This document shows, in pieces, positions 8,556 to 35,432 of a stretch of DNA of 64,000 nucleotides. The position numbers were made by a program, and so were the translations under genes. This DNA comes from Anaerolineae bacterium (GTDB lineage: Bacteria; Chloroflexota; Anaerolineae; Aggregatilineales; Aggregatilineaceae), in contig JAFGNU010000010.1 in NCBI GenBank assembly GCA_016926875.1, positions 1 through 64,000 on the forward strand, read 5' to 3'. The notes beneath the pieces are model-generated. The model was not told the origin of the DNA, searched no databases, and was given only the letters and a program-made list of their open reading frames with translations. Each line of letters opens with the position of its first letter. The first letter of the stretch is position 1.

Positions 8556-8829
8556 CTTTCAAAAGCGATGACGGAAACGAGTACGCCCTGGCCAATGGTT
8601 AGCGAGCCTGGAAACGGTGCGAGCCGGGCGCAGTGGTAGAGCGGAATATCCTTCCTGAGCTGCAAGCTGAACGCGTATCTACGCCAGTAAGCCGGGCCGG
8701 ATTGGTCCCCGTTACCAGGGCCTTGCCATCAGAGGTGGCAACAGAGCGCTCTGTCCATACCGGCAGAGAATAAGGGTGGTACCGCGAGAGCCATGCTCCC
8801 GTCCCTTAACCTGGGATGGGAGCTTTTGC
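8556..8829 (+). ncRNA. T-box riboswitch leader (tRNA-sensing), Stem I to terminator
   Basis: Stem I motifs GATGA...GAGTA and AGCGAGCCTGG..GGTGCGAGCCGGG; T-box sequence AAGGGTGGTACCGCG (8772-8786); intrinsic terminator GCTCCCGTCCC..GGGATGGGAGC-TTTT (8795-8827). Confidence 0.9.
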
Positions 8830-29026: not shown

Positions 29027-30103
29027 CTACTCAGCAGGGGCCTGTGGGGGCTGTGACGTTTTGCGCAGGGCCAGGACTGCGCCAATGATGACCAGGATCA
29101 AGCCCAGCCCAATGCCGATCAGCGGCAGGAATGTGCCAAACAGATCGAGCTGGTTTTTGGCATCGACGGCGTCTTGCTTGGCATCCTCAACGGAGTCTTC
29201 GATACCCTGGTAAGTCAGATCGGAAACGGCAATCCGCAGCAGGGCGCGCTGTTCCTCGTCCATAGCGGCCAGCAGAGGCGCGGCTTCCAGCACCTCGTCC
29301 GCCAGCCCGACTTTGCGCAGTTCGTGCTTTTTGGTGTCGATCAGCACGCCGGTAACTGGCTCAACCCAGTACCAGCCCTCGTATTCGTAGTAGTACGCCA
29401 ACGGGATAGTATCTTCGGGCCATTCTTCCAGCAGGCCGGGCAGTTGAGATTTAACCACCGGGCTGATGTCTGCCGATTCGATCAAGGCAGCGAGCTGCTC
29501 TTTGGGTAGTGCCGGGGGCAGGCCCATCGCAGCGGCAGCGGCGGGATCGATCGGCGCAGGCGGTTGGCTGGCAGTGAACAGGTAGGTGTCAATATCGGCG
29601 ATTTTCTCTTCTTTATCAAACGCAAGCGCGACGGTGGCGCGATAGTCGTCGCTCCAGCCTGTGTACTCTTTCTTCTCGGTGCCAATCGGCCAGCCCAGCA
29701 CCAATCCCTCGCGCACCCAGAACCCTTCTTTTTCCGCCCAGCTATCGGGGTAGTCGTCGGCAAATTCCATCGTCTTGCGGTCGATGGCGTAGCGCTTGGT
29801 GATGACTTGCAGCGGGTTGCCGTCCTTGTCGCTCAGCGTTTGCTGTTCCAGCACCAGCGCCACATCACCATCCACTTCTTCTGTTTCAAAATGGCGTTCA
29901 AGGTCTACTTCCAGGTCCGTCATGAATTCAAATGTGCTGGGATTGAGCAGCACCGGCATGGTGCCCTCGTACCGGCGGGTGGTGTCGACGTCGTCGGGGA
30001 ACTGCTTCATGCCGGGCACGAACACAAACATCAAGATTGCCCCAGCCAGCACGAGCACAATCCCCAAAACAAGTAAAACAATGCCTATTGACCTGCGGCT
30101 CAT
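29027..30103 (-). CDS. DUF3068 (PorA-like family) membrane protein
   Basis: N-terminal TM with VPGMKQFPDDVDTTRRYEGTM; KRYAIDRKTMEF; WPIGTEKKEYTGWSDDY; C-terminal TM. Confidence 0.75.
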   Translation of the reverse strand: MSRRSIGIVLLVLGIVLVLAGAILMFVFVPGMKQFPDDVDTTRRYEGTMPVLLNPSTFEFMTDLEVDLERHFETEEVDGDVALVLEQQTLSDKDGNPLQVITKRYAIDRKTMEFADDYPDSWAEKEGFWVREGLVLGWPIGTEKKEYTGWSDDYRATVALAFDKEEKIADIDTYLFTASQPPAPIDPAAAAAMGLPPALPKEQLAALIESADISPVVKSQLPGLLEEWPEDTIPLAYYYEYEGWYWVEPVTGVLIDTKKHELRKVGLADEVLEAAPLLAAMDEEQRALLRIAVSDLTYQGIEDSVEDAKQDAVDAKNQLDLFGTFLPLIGIGLGLILVIIGAVLALRKTSQPPQAPAE

Positions 30104-30252
30104 GTTCTTTCCTCCTTTGGTTGGACAAAAATAAATACATGTGTGACAAATGGCTGTTAGCCGCTAACTATACCCGCAACGCGTCAAATTGAGTAGACAA
30201 GCGTATGTGATCAGCCGGATGTCTACTCATATACAACACCGCTGAATGCAAA

Positions 30253-30280
30253 AGGCCCCGATATTGGATCATCGGGGCCT
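30253..30280 (-). terminator. Intrinsic terminator after the GT2 gene
   Basis: 10-bp inverted repeat AGGCCCCGAT/ATCGGGGCCT with TTTT on the minus strand. Confidence 0.65.
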
Positions 30281-30305
30281 GTTTTCAGGGTAAAACATCT
30301 TGGGA

Positions 30306-31760
30306 TCAGCGTTTGGAAAGCTGCCATGTTTGCCACAGGCTCCACAGCGACAGCAGCCCAAATGCCAGCACATATACCACCATGTAGATCATCATGGCCG
30401 GAAATTCGAGCATCGCAATCACCAGCCCGATCACGGCATACACACCCAGCGCCAGCTCGCCAATGGTGGTCCAATCCGGGCGGATCGCGTAGCGCTTGCT
30501 GGCGAGCGCATCGCTGCGCTGTACCACGCGGAACTTGGGCGTGCGCTTGAATACATTACCGCCGCTGCCGGTCAGCGCTTCGAAGACGGCACGCGAGTTG
30601 CTAAGCATCATGCCGGTGCCGATCAAGATCAGCACCGGGAAATACAGCAGCCGCCTATACCAGTCTTTATACAGCGCGATCTGGCCCATTGCCATGAAGA
30701 TCGGCGGCGCCAGCCCGGCGATGCCCAGCGGTCCCAGCGGCAGTTTTAGCAGCATATCGGTCAGCAGGATAGGCGGTGTCAGCAGGAACAACAGCAGCAC
30801 AAATGGCTGAATCGCGTACTGGCCCAGATGGGTCACGCCCAACGCTTTTTGCAGCGGATTCAGGTCAGATTTTAGCAGCGGTACCAGGTGTTTTTTAAAG
30901 CACTGGGTCGATCCCTTGGCCCAGCGCGCCTGTTGCACTTTGTAGGCGGTAAGCTGGGGCGGGACTTCGCCCGGCACGGCCACATCCACCACGTAGCGAA
31001 AGCGCCAGCCCTTCAAAAACGCGCGGTAGCTCAGGTCCAGGTCTTCGGTCAGCGTGTCTGCTGACCAGCCGCCCGCCTCGTCAATCGTCCGCCGCCGCCA
31101 GATGCCGCCCGTGCCGTTCATGGACATCGGCAGGCTGCCCCGGCTGCGCGCGACCTGTTCGATGGCAAAATGCTGGTCCATCGCCAGCGCCTGCGCACGG
31201 GTCAGCAGGTTATAGTCCACGTTGAGATGCGCCCAGCGCGTTTGTACCAGCGCCACGTTCGGATCGGCGTTAAAGTGCGGCATCACCCGGCGCAAAAAGT
31301 CCGGCGCAGGCACAAAGTCCGCGTCAAAAATGCCCACGCAGTCGGTATCGGACAGCGTTAACCCGTAGGCCATCGCACCTGCTTTGTAGCCAACCCGGTT
31401 GGGGCGGCGGATAAGGTCGATGTGCAGTCCTTTCGCCTGCCATTCCTCAGCTTTTTGGCGCAGCAGGTCGGTGGTTTCGTCGGTGGAATCGTCAAGCACC
31501 TGGATGTAAAGCTTGTCGCGCGGGTAGTCCAGGTTGCCCATCGCGTCGATCAGGCGGTCTACCACGTGCTGTTCGTTGTAGATCGGCAGTTGCAAGGTAA
31601 CAGACAGCAGGTCGTCGTCGGATATGTCCGGCGCAATCGGCGGTTGCCTGCGTTTGAGCAGGTAGATTGCCATCAGGATGAAAAAACTGGCCGAGTAAAT
31701 AGCGATAACCGTGGTGGCGAGCATATAGCCCAGCCCTAACAGGGTTGTGATCAAGGTCAA
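30306..31760 (-). CDS. Family 2 glycosyltransferase (cellulose synthase/mannan synthase-like)
   Basis: VTLQLPIYNEQHVVDRLIDAM, VLDDSTDETTD, FDADFVPAPDFL, TEDLDLSYRAFLKGWRFRYV, QQARWAKGSTQ (QxxRW). Confidence 0.92.
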   Translation of the reverse strand: MTLITTLLGLGYMLATTVIAIYSASFFILMAIYLLKRRQPPIAPDISDDDLLSVTLQLPIYNEQHVVDRLIDAMGNLDYPRDKLYIQVLDDSTDETTDLLRQKAEEWQAKGLHIDLIRRPNRVGYKAGAMAYGLTLSDTDCVGIFDADFVPAPDFLRRVMPHFNADPNVALVQTRWAHLNVDYNLLTRAQALAMDQHFAIEQVARSRGSLPMSMNGTGGIWRRRTIDEAGGWSADTLTEDLDLSYRAFLKGWRFRYVVDVAVPGEVPPQLTAYKVQQARWAKGSTQCFKKHLVPLLKSDLNPLQKALGVTHLGQYAIQPFVLLLFLLTPPILLTDMLLKLPLGPLGIAGLAPPIFMAMGQIALYKDWYRRLLYFPVLILIGTGMMLSNSRAVFEALTGSGGNVFKRTPKFRVVQRSDALASKRYAIRPDWTTIGELALGVYAVIGLVIAMLEFPAMMIYMVVYVLAFGLLSLWSLWQTWQLSKR

Positions 31761-31818: not shown

Positions 31819-33570
31819 CTAGTCCCGGCGCTTTTGAACGCCGGTTACCAGGTACATCACCTGGAAATCTGTGTAGCCTTTGACTTTGCGCGGTTCCAGT
31901 GCTTCAACCGTGACCAGATCGCGCACCCGCTCGTAGGTATGCTCGCTGATGATGATCTCTCCGGCCAGCGCGTTTTCTTGCAGCAGCTTGGCGAAGTTGA
32001 ACGGTGCCCCGATGGCCGTAAATTCGCGGCGGCTGGGGCTGCCGACGTTGCCCAGCATGGCATAGCCCGTGTCCACACCGATTCCATAAAACAGACGGTG
32101 CTCCGGTGCGAGCACCTCGTGCAGTGCGAGCACATCGTATGCCATCGACAGCGCGGCACGCACCGCGCGGACGGCGTGATCGCGCTGGGGATTCAACTGG
32201 GTATTGAACAGGCCAACCACGGCATCGCCCATATACTTATCAACGATCCCATCATAAAGCTGGATCGCGTCCGTGCTGACGGACAAGAAACGGTTGATAA
32301 TCTCCAGCAGTTGCTCCGGCGGGAGCTGCTCGCTGAAGGTGGTGAACCCGCGCACATCTGCGAATACAATCGAGATCTCCCGTTCGTCCCCGCTGAGACC
32401 CAGCCCGTCAATGCTCTGGATATTTCGGACCAGGCTCGGCGGCAGGTAGGTCCGCACGGTGTTCAGGGTGGCATCGCGTTTTTTGATCTCGGTCAGGTCA
32501 TCAACAACCAGCACCATGCCGTACGTGATGTTGTTCGCATCCTTGAGCGGCGCCATTTTCAGGTTCAGGTGAACTGCGCCGCGTCCTGGCAGCACCGATT
32601 CGGCTTCAACCACCTGCTGGCGGTCTTCTTCACGGACGGAAGCCATCAGTTCGTCAAAGCCTTGAAACACCGCTGGCAGCACCGATTGCAGCGGGCGGCC
32701 AATGGCGTCTTGATAGGACACGCCGAGGATGTGTTCGGCAGCCTGGTTGTAAGTCACGATCATGTTATCCGCATCGGCTGTGATCACCCCGCTGGCGATG
32801 GATGCAAAGACGTTGTCCATCAGCTCTTTCATTTCGGTGATCTCTGCCAGCGTTTGCCGCACATGTTCGAACAGGTACGCGTTCTCGATTGCAATCGCCG
32901 CCTGGTTGGCGAACGCCATCAGCAGCGATAATTCTTTGTCGCCAAACAGGTCAGGCTGCTGCCGGTTGTCAACGTACAGCACGCCCGTAACACTCTCCTT
33001 GTAGATCAGCGGTACACATAGCACCGAGCGGGGCGCGTGCATGACGATGCTGGCCTCCGCGCTGTAGCGTGGATCGAGCACGGCGTTTCCGGCGACGACC
33101 GGCTCGCCTGTTTGTGCCACTTCGCTCACAATCGTCTGGCTGACCGTGAACTTGTCTTCTTCGATCGTTTCGCGGTGGCAGTCGCGCGCAGCACGAAAGC
33201 GCATGTCGTCCGTGTGGGGATCGCGCAGCACGATGTAGCCGCGCTCAGCGCCGATCAGGGCGATTGCGGTGTCCATTACCTCGTGAAGCACCTGGTCAAC
33301 TTCCAGCGACGAGTTAAGCAGTTGAATCGTGTTGGCCAGCGCCCGGAGTTGCTCCAGTTCGGTTGCTTCATCGAACATATGGCGTGCCAGGCTGCCCAGA
33401 TCAGAGCGCACATAGTAACACTGCTCCAGCGCGTCGGTTGGCAGGTTCATACCCCGCTGCTGCAAAATATCATTTTGGGCGCGCAGCATACCTTCCAGGT
33501 CGCTGAGCTGCTGGCTCAGCCGGAGTATTTCTTCTTGCGCTGCGTTAGGAACATGGGTGGATTTTAGCAT
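31819..33570 (-). CDS. GAF-PAS class III nucleotidyl cyclase paralog A (retains metal-binding Asp pair; lacks transition-state Arg)
   Basis: GAF block (GAERGYIVLRDPHTDDMRFRAARD), PAS block, cyclase motifs FADVRGFT and DKYMGDAVVGLFN, but IGAPFNFAKLL in place of IGDxVNxAxRL. Confidence 0.88.
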   Translation of the reverse strand: MLKSTHVPNAAQEEILRLSQQLSDLEGMLRAQNDILQQRGMNLPTDALEQCYYVRSDLGSLARHMFDEATELEQLRALANTIQLLNSSLEVDQVLHEVMDTAIALIGAERGYIVLRDPHTDDMRFRAARDCHRETIEEDKFTVSQTIVSEVAQTGEPVVAGNAVLDPRYSAEASIVMHAPRSVLCVPLIYKESVTGVLYVDNRQQPDLFGDKELSLLMAFANQAAIAIENAYLFEHVRQTLAEITEMKELMDNVFASIASGVITADADNMIVTYNQAAEHILGVSYQDAIGRPLQSVLPAVFQGFDELMASVREEDRQQVVEAESVLPGRGAVHLNLKMAPLKDANNITYGMVLVVDDLTEIKKRDATLNTVRTYLPPSLVRNIQSIDGLGLSGDEREISIVFADVRGFTTFSEQLPPEQLLEIINRFLSVSTDAIQLYDGIVDKYMGDAVVGLFNTQLNPQRDHAVRAVRAALSMAYDVLALHEVLAPEHRLFYGIGVDTGYAMLGNVGSPSRREFTAIGAPFNFAKLLQENALAGEIIISEHTYERVRDLVTVEALEPRKVKGYTDFQVMYLVTGVQKRRD

Positions 33571-33599
33571 GATACTATCCGTTGGCTGGGTCGAGCCTG

Positions 33600-35360
33600 T
33601 CAGCGGTGACAGGGCAAGATTTCATAAATCTTGGCTGCTTGTCGGCGCCCTTTCACCTGGATGCTGGGGCGTTCAACCACCTGGATGCTGGTGGATAGAG
33701 CGCTGAGCTGCTGGTGGCAGTGGCGATATGTCTCATCGCTGATGATCATGTGTCCGTACTGGGCATTTTCTTGCAGCCGCTTGGCAAGATTGACCGTATC
33801 GCCAATAGCGGTAAACTCACGACGCTTGGTGCTGCCGACGTTGCCTAATGTCGCCACACCGGTATGGATGCCGATGCGATAGTAGGGAATCGGTTCTTCG
33901 CCAATATGCTCGGCCAGCGCTATGTAATCATCTGCCATTTTTAACGCAGCCTGAACTGCCCACCAGGCATGATCGTCGCTGGGATTCAACTGGGTATTAA
34001 ACAGGCCCATGATCTCGTTGCCCATGAACTTGTCGATCACGCCTGTCTGGAGGTGGATTGCCTCGGCGCCCACGCTCAGATACAGGTTCAACAACTCCAT
34101 CAGGTCATGAGGTGCCAGGTCAACCGGGAATGTTTCAAACGGGCGCGTTTCCACGAACATGACGGTAACCACGCGGCGCTCACCTCCCAGCCCCAACCCG
34201 TCGATGCTCTCGATATTGTCGAGCATGGCAGGGGGCAGGTAGCGGCGCACTACATCCAGCGTGGCATCGCGCTTTTTGATCTCGGTCAGGTCGTCCACCA
34301 CAATCGCCACACCCTCGGTGATGTCTTCGGCGTTTTTCAGCGGGGTGAGCTTCAGGTTCAGGTTGACCGCGCCCCGTCTGGGCAGTTCGGTGTCGATCTC
34401 GATCAGTTCCTGGTAGCTGTGCTGATAGATGACGTCGATCAGGTTTTCCACATAGGCGTATATGATCGGCAGCGCCTGGGCCAGAGAATTACCGATAGCT
34501 GTGCTGAATGGCACAATTAAGATTTGCTCAGCCGCAACATTATATGTCGTCACTCTCTCGTCCGCATCGGTTGTGATCACGCCGCTGGTGATCGATGCAA
34601 AGACGTTATCCATCAACTCTTTCATCTCGGTGATCTCGGCCAGCGCGGTTTGCACGCCCTGAAACAGGCGCGCGTTTTCAATCGCCACCGCTGCCTGGTT
34701 GGCGAACGCGACCAGCAACGACAGCTCTTTTTCGCCGAATAAGCCATCTTTGATGCGGTTGTCGGCGTATACCACGCCTGTGATCTCGTCTTTCACGATC
34801 AGCGGCACGCACAAAATGGAACGCAGCGCGTAGATCAGCACGCTCTCCTGTGCGCTGAAACGGGGGTCTGACTGGGCGTTCGTGGTCACGACCGGGTGGC
34901 CGGTTTGGGCGACCTCGTCCACAATCGTCCGGCTGACGATAAAACTGCCCTCATCGACTGATTTACGATCCAGGTTGCGAGCGATGCGAAATTCCATCTG
35001 GCCGGTGCGCTTGTTGCGCAGCATGATGTAACCACGCTCGGCGCCGGTCAGCGCGATGACCGTGTCCATTACCTCGTTAAGCACTTGGTCTGCGTCCAGG
35101 GAGGAGTTGATCAACGCGGTTGTTTCTGCCAGCGCCCGAAGCTGCTCTAGCTCGATGTTGGCATCGATAAGCTGTTGTGTCAGTTTTTCCAGGCCTGTCT
35201 GGACAGCCTTGAACCCATTCAGTGTGCCAGGCGGCAGTCCCATACCTTGCTGGCGCAGAAAGGTGCGTTGTGCCCGCAAAGTGTCGATTAGCTTGTTAAC
35301 CGTATCGCCCAGGCGTCTGGCTTCTTCCTGGGCAGAGTAGTGTTGTATCGGGCTTGCCAT
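33600..35360 (-). CDS. GAF-PAS class III nucleotidyl cyclase paralog B (retains K/D and N-R; metal-site Asp replaced by Glu and Asn)
   Basis: Same architecture; FVETRPFETF and DKFMGNEIMGLFN at the metal site, intact IGDTVNLAKRLQ. Confidence 0.88.
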   Translation of the reverse strand: MASPIQHYSAQEEARRLGDTVNKLIDTLRAQRTFLRQQGMGLPPGTLNGFKAVQTGLEKLTQQLIDANIELEQLRALAETTALINSSLDADQVLNEVMDTVIALTGAERGYIMLRNKRTGQMEFRIARNLDRKSVDEGSFIVSRTIVDEVAQTGHPVVTTNAQSDPRFSAQESVLIYALRSILCVPLIVKDEITGVVYADNRIKDGLFGEKELSLLVAFANQAAVAIENARLFQGVQTALAEITEMKELMDNVFASITSGVITTDADERVTTYNVAAEQILIVPFSTAIGNSLAQALPIIYAYVENLIDVIYQHSYQELIEIDTELPRRGAVNLNLKLTPLKNAEDITEGVAIVVDDLTEIKKRDATLDVVRRYLPPAMLDNIESIDGLGLGGERRVVTVMFVETRPFETFPVDLAPHDLMELLNLYLSVGAEAIHLQTGVIDKFMGNEIMGLFNTQLNPSDDHAWWAVQAALKMADDYIALAEHIGEEPIPYYRIGIHTGVATLGNVGSTKRREFTAIGDTVNLAKRLQENAQYGHMIISDETYRHCHQQLSALSTSIQVVERPSIQVKGRRQAAKIYEILPCHR

Positions 35361-35405: not shown

Positions 35406-35432
35406 ATTATACCCGGATGAAGGGGGCAAGCA
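35406..35432 (-). promoter_or_regulatory. Candidate promoter of the cyclase operon
   Basis: Minus strand TTGCTT-N16-TATAAT about 45 nt upstream of the ATG at 35360. Confidence 0.45.

Follow-up and report, generated by a model that had tools for sequence, protein, structure and literature searches.

A bacterial gene pair that probably encodes a heterodimeric class IIIb adenylate cyclase with a single active site

Introduction

What is made by two adjacent cyclase genes, neither of which encodes a complete set of catalytic residues? The question is raised by a locus in a 64,000-nucleotide stretch of an Anaerolineae genome (contig JAFGNU010000010.1 of assembly GCA_016926875.1, positions 1 to 64,000), referred to here as the window. 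Class III cyclases form their active sites at a dimer interface, with metals on one chain and asparagine and arginine supplied by the other (PMC2576301; PMC3591389). The two proteins of the locus, A and B, very probably form an obligate heterodimer, a class IIIb adenylate cyclase in which one site is active and the other is a dead pseudo-site. The complementary distribution of catalytic residues on which this reading is based is found at 70/70 two-gene loci and at 0/49 single-gene homologues, a difference far beyond chance.

Gene and Domain Organization

Gene B (33600..35360, minus strand) encodes the C2-type subunit of 586 amino acids, and gene A (31819..33570, minus strand), 29 nucleotides downstream of it, encodes the C1-type subunit of 583 amino acids; the order of transcription is B, then A. 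The open reading frames and the Pfam matches agree with a first-pass annotation of the same DNA, which had described two minus-strand GAF-PAS-cyclase genes with this spacing. An in-frame TTG at 35429 is an alternative start for B that would lengthen the protein to 609 amino acids. B lies directly upstream of A in 69 relatives as well, with the two genes about contiguous.

A and B of the window are 56% identical over 537 aligned residues. Their GAF, PAS, and class III cyclase domains all score well above the Pfam cut-offs, and the Guanylate_cyc matches of 55.4 and 61 bits (cut-off 21.9) place both proteins among the class III cyclases. The predicted structure of B superimposes on the CyaC and CyaB domains with target-normalized template modeling (TM) scores of about 0.8–0.87, as for a class III fold. 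AlphaFold models of the single chains (predicted TM scores of 0.37–0.38, from thin alignments) contain the expected domains, have a low-confidence metal loop in A, and are uninformative on pairing.

Active Site Residues

A retains both metal-binding aspartates. Asp405 (32356..32358) lies in the motif FADVRGFT (32341-32364, exactly as first annotated) and Asp449 (32224..32226) in DKYMGDAVV, a motif that had been recognized correctly but placed at about 32221-32250, its actual position being 32215-32241. Both residues are kept in 71/71 A proteins and 49/49 single-gene homologues. The ribose-orienting Asn525 (31996..31998) is present here and kept in only 16/70 A orthologues. The transition-state arginine, which in the canonical enzyme stands four residues after this asparagine, is replaced by Leu529 (31984..31986) in the motif NFAKLL; 0/70 A proteins have Arg at this position, which is instead occupied by L, Y, K, F, Q, or others. 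The longer motif IGAPFNFAKLL was likewise read correctly in the first pass, although it ends at 32013 and not at 32016 (start 31981). A of the window has all of the catalytic residues (Asp, Asp, Lys, Thr, and Asn) except Arg, such that the clear predicted catalytic loss of A in this genome is the arginine.

B departs from the canonical enzyme in the other half of the site. Its motifs FVETRPF and DKFMGNE have Glu404 (34149..34151) and Asn448 (34017..34019) where the canonical enzyme has two aspartates. The first position is Glu, Asn, Ser, Thr, Tyr, or Asp among B proteins (Asp in 31/71), and the second is Asp in 0/71 and is followed by a B-specific glutamate, Glu449, in 63/71. The predicted catalytic loss of B in this genome is the second metal-binding aspartate, together with the replacement of the first by glutamate. 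The ribose-orienting Asn524 (33789..33791) and the transition-state Arg528 (33777..33779) are each kept in 71/71 B proteins. These losses, two in the metal site of B and one at the N+4 arginine of A, had been noticed in the first pass and are real.

The base-contacting residue is a different matter. It had been identified with the aspartate three positions before the asparagine (N-3, in IGDTVN), thought to be gone from A and retained by B. Alignment of B with the solved cyclase CyaC sets KRREFTAIGDTVNLAKRLQE over ERSDFTAIGPSVNIAARLQE; FTAIG matches FTAIG, and the base-contacting position falls seven residues before the asparagine (N-7). The C1 segment of AC5, FDVWSNDVTLANHM, and the C2 segment of AC2, YDIWGNTVNVASRM, likewise have this residue seven before the asparagine, where the mammalian enzymes carry Asp. 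CyaC, A, and B (Thr517, 33810..33812) all have Thr at N-7, so the claimed difference between A and B does not hold. The N-3 residue, for which CyaC has Pro and mammalian C2 has Asn, is not diagnostic.

On the basis of Thr at N-7, the pair is assigned to class IIIb. Thr or Ser, without Asp, is found there in all B proteins and all single-gene homologues, and A proteins drift to Ala, Gly, or Asn. Lysine occupies the purine-specifying position of the putative base-binding chain in 71/71 B proteins. Of the adenylate-cyclase-type residues first proposed, the lysine therefore stands and the aspartate gives way to a class IIIb threonine. Following the assignment of substrate specificity in class IIIb, Lys plus Thr/Ser in B indicates ATP as the substrate, and the product is most likely cyclic AMP (cAMP), as these residues match those of CyaC. 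The genome also contains seven hits to the cyclic nucleotide-binding domain, candidate cAMP responders.

Conservation of the Divided Site

A search with B across 101 related genomes recovered a neighboring pair throughout the order to which the window belongs. DNA was taken from 80 loci of these genomes and from 40 single-copy homologues in other orders of the class, and seven positions were scored in each protein: metal Asp 1, Lys, metal Asp 2, N-7, N-3, Asn, and Arg. The two-gene loci number 70 (the window and 69 relatives), with B upstream of A on the same strand in 70/70; two more loci are interrupted by contig ends. Matching genomes outside the order, sampled from the class and phylum, are almost all single-copy.

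The first-pass annotation had predicted a complementary pair able to build a site only as A–B and had named orthologous pairs lacking this complementarity as evidence to the contrary. Across the order, 70/70 pairs carry every residue of the composite site (A supplying Asp and Asp; B supplying Lys, Thr/Ser, Asn, and Arg), which is consistent with the prediction. Lysine, like Asn and Arg, is present in every one of the 71 B proteins. A complete set in a single chain, as in the usual homodimeric bacterial enzyme, is found in none of the scorable orthologues, A lacking Arg and B lacking metal Asp 2; complementary half-sites in paralogous domains, as in heterodimeric class III enzymes, are found in all 70 pairs. 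The single-gene homologues are intact in 49/49 (Asp, Lys, Asp, Thr/Ser, Asn, Arg); 9 of them belong to family f3, within the window's own order, and 40 to the remainder of the class.

Two groups of genomes deserve separate mention. Members of genus g35 (G050, G065, G068–G070, and others) retain the pair, although a search with B gives no more than two or three significant matches per genome; in most members examined, A has Gln in place of Lys, and the N-3 residue of B is His, Ser, or Asn. G187, outside the order, carries two single-gene homologues on separate contigs, C91 and C314, the C91 copy (L177) being intact; these may represent a strain mixture or a separate duplication.

The history of substitutions points to the same division. 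Reconstructed on the tree for 34 pairs, no change falls on the two metal aspartates of A or on Lys, Asn, and Arg of B. At the partner positions, metal Asp 1 of B changed 9 times, metal Asp 2 of B 14 times, Asn of A 20 times, and Arg of A 11 times. Lysine is the exception, as A retains it almost everywhere (1 change). The N-7 threonine changed 12 times in A vs 3 times in B, and in B only between Thr and Ser. Beyond the catalytic residues, several metal-loop residues conserved in the single-gene homologues (G408, E414, E419, A450, L493, and G496) persist in A and have disappeared from B, and near the Asn/Arg helix the reverse is seen. Over the whole protein, reciprocally lost conserved columns make up 12/41 across the cyclase domain with its N-terminal edge and 0/71 elsewhere. 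At the level of residues, such a pattern would be expected with selection on exactly one of a dimer's two sites and is unexpected for decaying pseudogenes or two independent pseudo-enzymes.

Residues have also been gained. Near the dead metal site, B has newly fixed Glu449 (34014-34016; 63/71, with Asp in 6), Arg495 (33876-33878; 56/71), and Thr504 (33849-33851; 70/71), all absent from the single-gene homologues, and A has Glu396 (32383-32385; 68/71) where the single-gene homologues and B have Arg. Their role may lie in an asymmetric interface or in a pseudo-site put to new use, with a ligand of its own.

Origin of the Pair

Maximum-likelihood trees were built with the seven scored columns (catalytic plus N-3) left out. 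All A proteins form one clade and all B proteins another, with Shimodaira–Hasegawa-like approximate likelihood ratio test (SH-aLRT) values of 98–99 in a 92-row tree and bootstrap/SH-aLRT values of 100/99 for both in a careful 51-row tree. Together, the two clades are sister to the single-gene proteins of family f3. An older origin of the pair, with one copy lost in f3, is rejected by the approximately unbiased (AU) test, whether f3 is joined to A alone (p-AU 0.007) or to B alone (p-AU 0.006). The clades and these rejections indicate a single tandem duplication after f3 diverged, followed by reciprocal loss and retention of the pair. The split is old, given that the median A–B identity within a genome (43%) is comparable to the identity between genomes of A with A (46%) and of B with B (45%).

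Proposed Heterodimer and Alternative Explanations

The sequences show a single tandem duplication, within the order and after the divergence of f3, of an intact single-gene GAF-PAS-cyclase, presumably a homodimer as bacterial class III enzymes generally are. The two copies then gave up opposite halves of the site and have stood side by side ever since. A and B would pair via their coiled-coil, GAF, PAS, and cyclase domains. In the resulting A–B wreath, A would contribute both metal aspartates to a single complete site and B would add its Lys, Thr/Ser, Asn, and Arg, and the mirror site, without metal ligands and without Arg, would be dead. An A–A dimer would lack Arg twice, and a B–B dimer would lack the metal ligands twice. 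Ligands or proteins acting on the GAF/PAS modules would govern the output of the cyclase. Both the A–B dimerization and the synthesis of cAMP are inferred from residue patterns.

Three observations weigh against this picture. The N-3 Asp of B is replaced by H, S, or N in 11/71 proteins, the relatives with public titles are all metagenome-assembled genomes of Chloroflexota, and A has Gly496 at the position of the triphosphate-binding Arg of AC5 C1, by which the predicted site departs from the textbook. Gly496 was considered as a further catalytic loss and discarded, as Gly is also present in 98% of the intact single-gene homologues and in the solved guanylyl cyclase Cya2.

Since each protein alone is without essential residues, one or both could instead be pseudo-cyclases that bind nucleotide or each other and act as sensors or scaffolds in an asymmetric regulation that yields no cyclic nucleotide. 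The residues fixed near the dead site of B (E449 in 63/71, R495 in 56/71, T504 in 70/71) suggest that a pseudo-site is in use and would suit such a role. However, a pair of pseudo-enzymes would have no reason to maintain two metal aspartates on one chain together with Asn/Arg on its partner, and the composite-site residues are invariant in all pairs (Thr/Ser at N-7 aside) while the mirror positions drift, which makes this explanation quite unlikely. Arginine-less class III cyclases with residual activity exist, and A of the window lacks Arg only; A homodimers might then be weakly active by a non-canonical route, with B as a regulatory partner that tunes A. A functional A–A enzyme would not be expected to keep Asn in only 16/70 orthologues or to let the N-7 Thr drift, and this proposal is regarded as very improbable.

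The genome encodes class III domains elsewhere, on contigs C53, C69, C9, and C30, with which A and/or B could pair in place of each other. Such partnerships would be hard to reconcile with the adjacency of A and B at 70/70 loci. Moreover, the cyclases of C53, C69, and C9 are complete alone, the C30 protein has two half-sites of its own, and genus g35 retains the pair with so few matches to B per genome; there is little to recommend outside partners, and they are considered most improbable. The obligate A–B heterodimer is thus the preferred reading. An extended form of it, in which the pair is a natural obligate two-gene bacterial heterodimeric adenylate cyclase with an intact unduplicated relative in a sister family and in which Glu449, Arg495, and Thr504 of B possibly form a regulatory pseudo-site comparable to the mammalian forskolin site, is put forward only tentatively.

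Inputs to the GAF and PAS Domains

The GAF domains span residues 89–230 of A (32881..33306, minus strand) and 89–228 of B (34677..35096, minus strand). The first-pass annotation had envisaged cAMP output as an AND gate of two GAF inputs. Reciprocal divergence is limited to the cyclase domain and its edge, and in the GAF and PAS domains A and B share their conserved residues, with no reciprocal loss; the proposed gate is unsupported. GAF divergence was sought as a sign of two different inputs, and none was found. A single shared input sensed by the GAF pair is at least as likely. The GAF segment VDNRQQPDLFGDKE, read by eye, is unlike the NKFDE-type motif of cyclic nucleotide-binding GAF domains (CyaB1/PDE type). 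Overall, the first-pass interpretation is partly supported.

Genomic Surroundings

Directly downstream of A on the same strand (29027-31760, minus strand) lie a glycosyltransferase family 2 gene and a gene named as a PorA-family membrane protein. This arrangement is common to only 7–8 of about 80 loci, and the two genes are probably outside the cyclase system. Conserved neighbors gave no clue to function, as no family adjoins the pair in >8 of about 80 loci. Elsewhere in the window, a T-box leader is found at 8559-8809 on the plus strand (Rfam RF00230, 97.8 bits).

Comparison with Known Class III Cyclases

The division of labor is the same as in the mammalian transmembrane adenylyl cyclases, in which C1, as A, keeps both aspartates and has Thr for Asn and His for Arg, and C2, as B, has Ser and Ser at the metal positions and contributes Lys, Asn, and Arg. 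The C1/C2 pair goes back to a homodimeric cyclase of bacterial type that was duplicated (PMC9552081). However, A and B are separate, unfused proteins with GAF and PAS domains and a class IIIb Thr/Ser at N-7 (Asp in the mammalian class IIIa enzymes), no cyclase-linked membrane domain is seen in either, and their origin is independent.

The α and β subunits of animal soluble guanylate cyclase (sGC) are likewise soluble paralogs encoded by two separate genes and equipped with sensor and PAS-like domains; one subunit has the metal Asp and the other the Arg. In human sGC, neither catalytic-domain homodimer is active, and activity appears upon mixing, the site being split (PMC3591389). In contrast to sGC, A and B form a bacterial gene pair, have the adenine-type Lys plus Thr/Ser, and carry GAF domains where sGC has its heme H-NOX sensor. 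The fungal NeoR/RGC rhodopsin-cyclases are also obligate heterodimers of paralogous cyclases (PMC8815786), yet these are light-driven guanylyl cyclases.

Among bacterial enzymes, CyaC (Spirulina), CyaB (Pseudomonas), and Cya2 (Synechocystis) are the best matches in sequence and fold, with CyaC sharing the Thr position and motifs. In these, one chain holds the metal aspartates as well as Asn/Arg, whereas A and B split the set over two genes. The direct unduplicated relatives are the single-gene GAF-PAS-cyclases of other Anaerolineae (f3 and other orders), which have the same architecture and are intact (49/49).

A 2022 review describes the class III adenylyl cyclases of bacteria as homodimerizing monomers and fused dimeric species as unknown in bacteria (PMC9552081). 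A further protein of the same genome may be an exception to the latter statement. Contig C30 (3228-4541, minus strand; L006, L007, L185) encodes a protein of about 1000 amino acids that carries two class III cyclase domains and, after them, an AAA ATPase; domain 1 keeps the metal aspartates (FADVTGF, FAGDA) and is without Asn/Arg, and domain 2 is without the metal aspartates (MHATGF) and keeps SDVNLAARL. By these motifs, it looks like a bacterial fused C1–C2 enzyme akin to soluble adenylyl cyclase.

No natural bacterial heterodimeric class III cyclase was described in the literature searched, outside of which most subscription papers fell, and a search of plasmids returned only distant cyclases. 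The fold and the class are known, and the division of labor is that of C1/C2 and sGC; the pair stands apart by its host and form, an independently evolved class IIIb GAF-PAS gene pair in bacteria. A two-gene split site has otherwise been described mainly in animals and other eukaryotes.

In this order, the step that led to C1/C2 in animals appears to have taken place a second time. The benefit of a duplicated enzyme has been called an open question (PMC9552081). Both the state before duplication, the intact single gene of f3, and the state after it, about 70 divergent pairs, exist today, making the transition from homodimer to heterodimer directly testable. The transition opens the questions of which losses are tolerated, whether the pseudo-site took on a function, and whether the relatives without the duplication are themselves active as homodimers.

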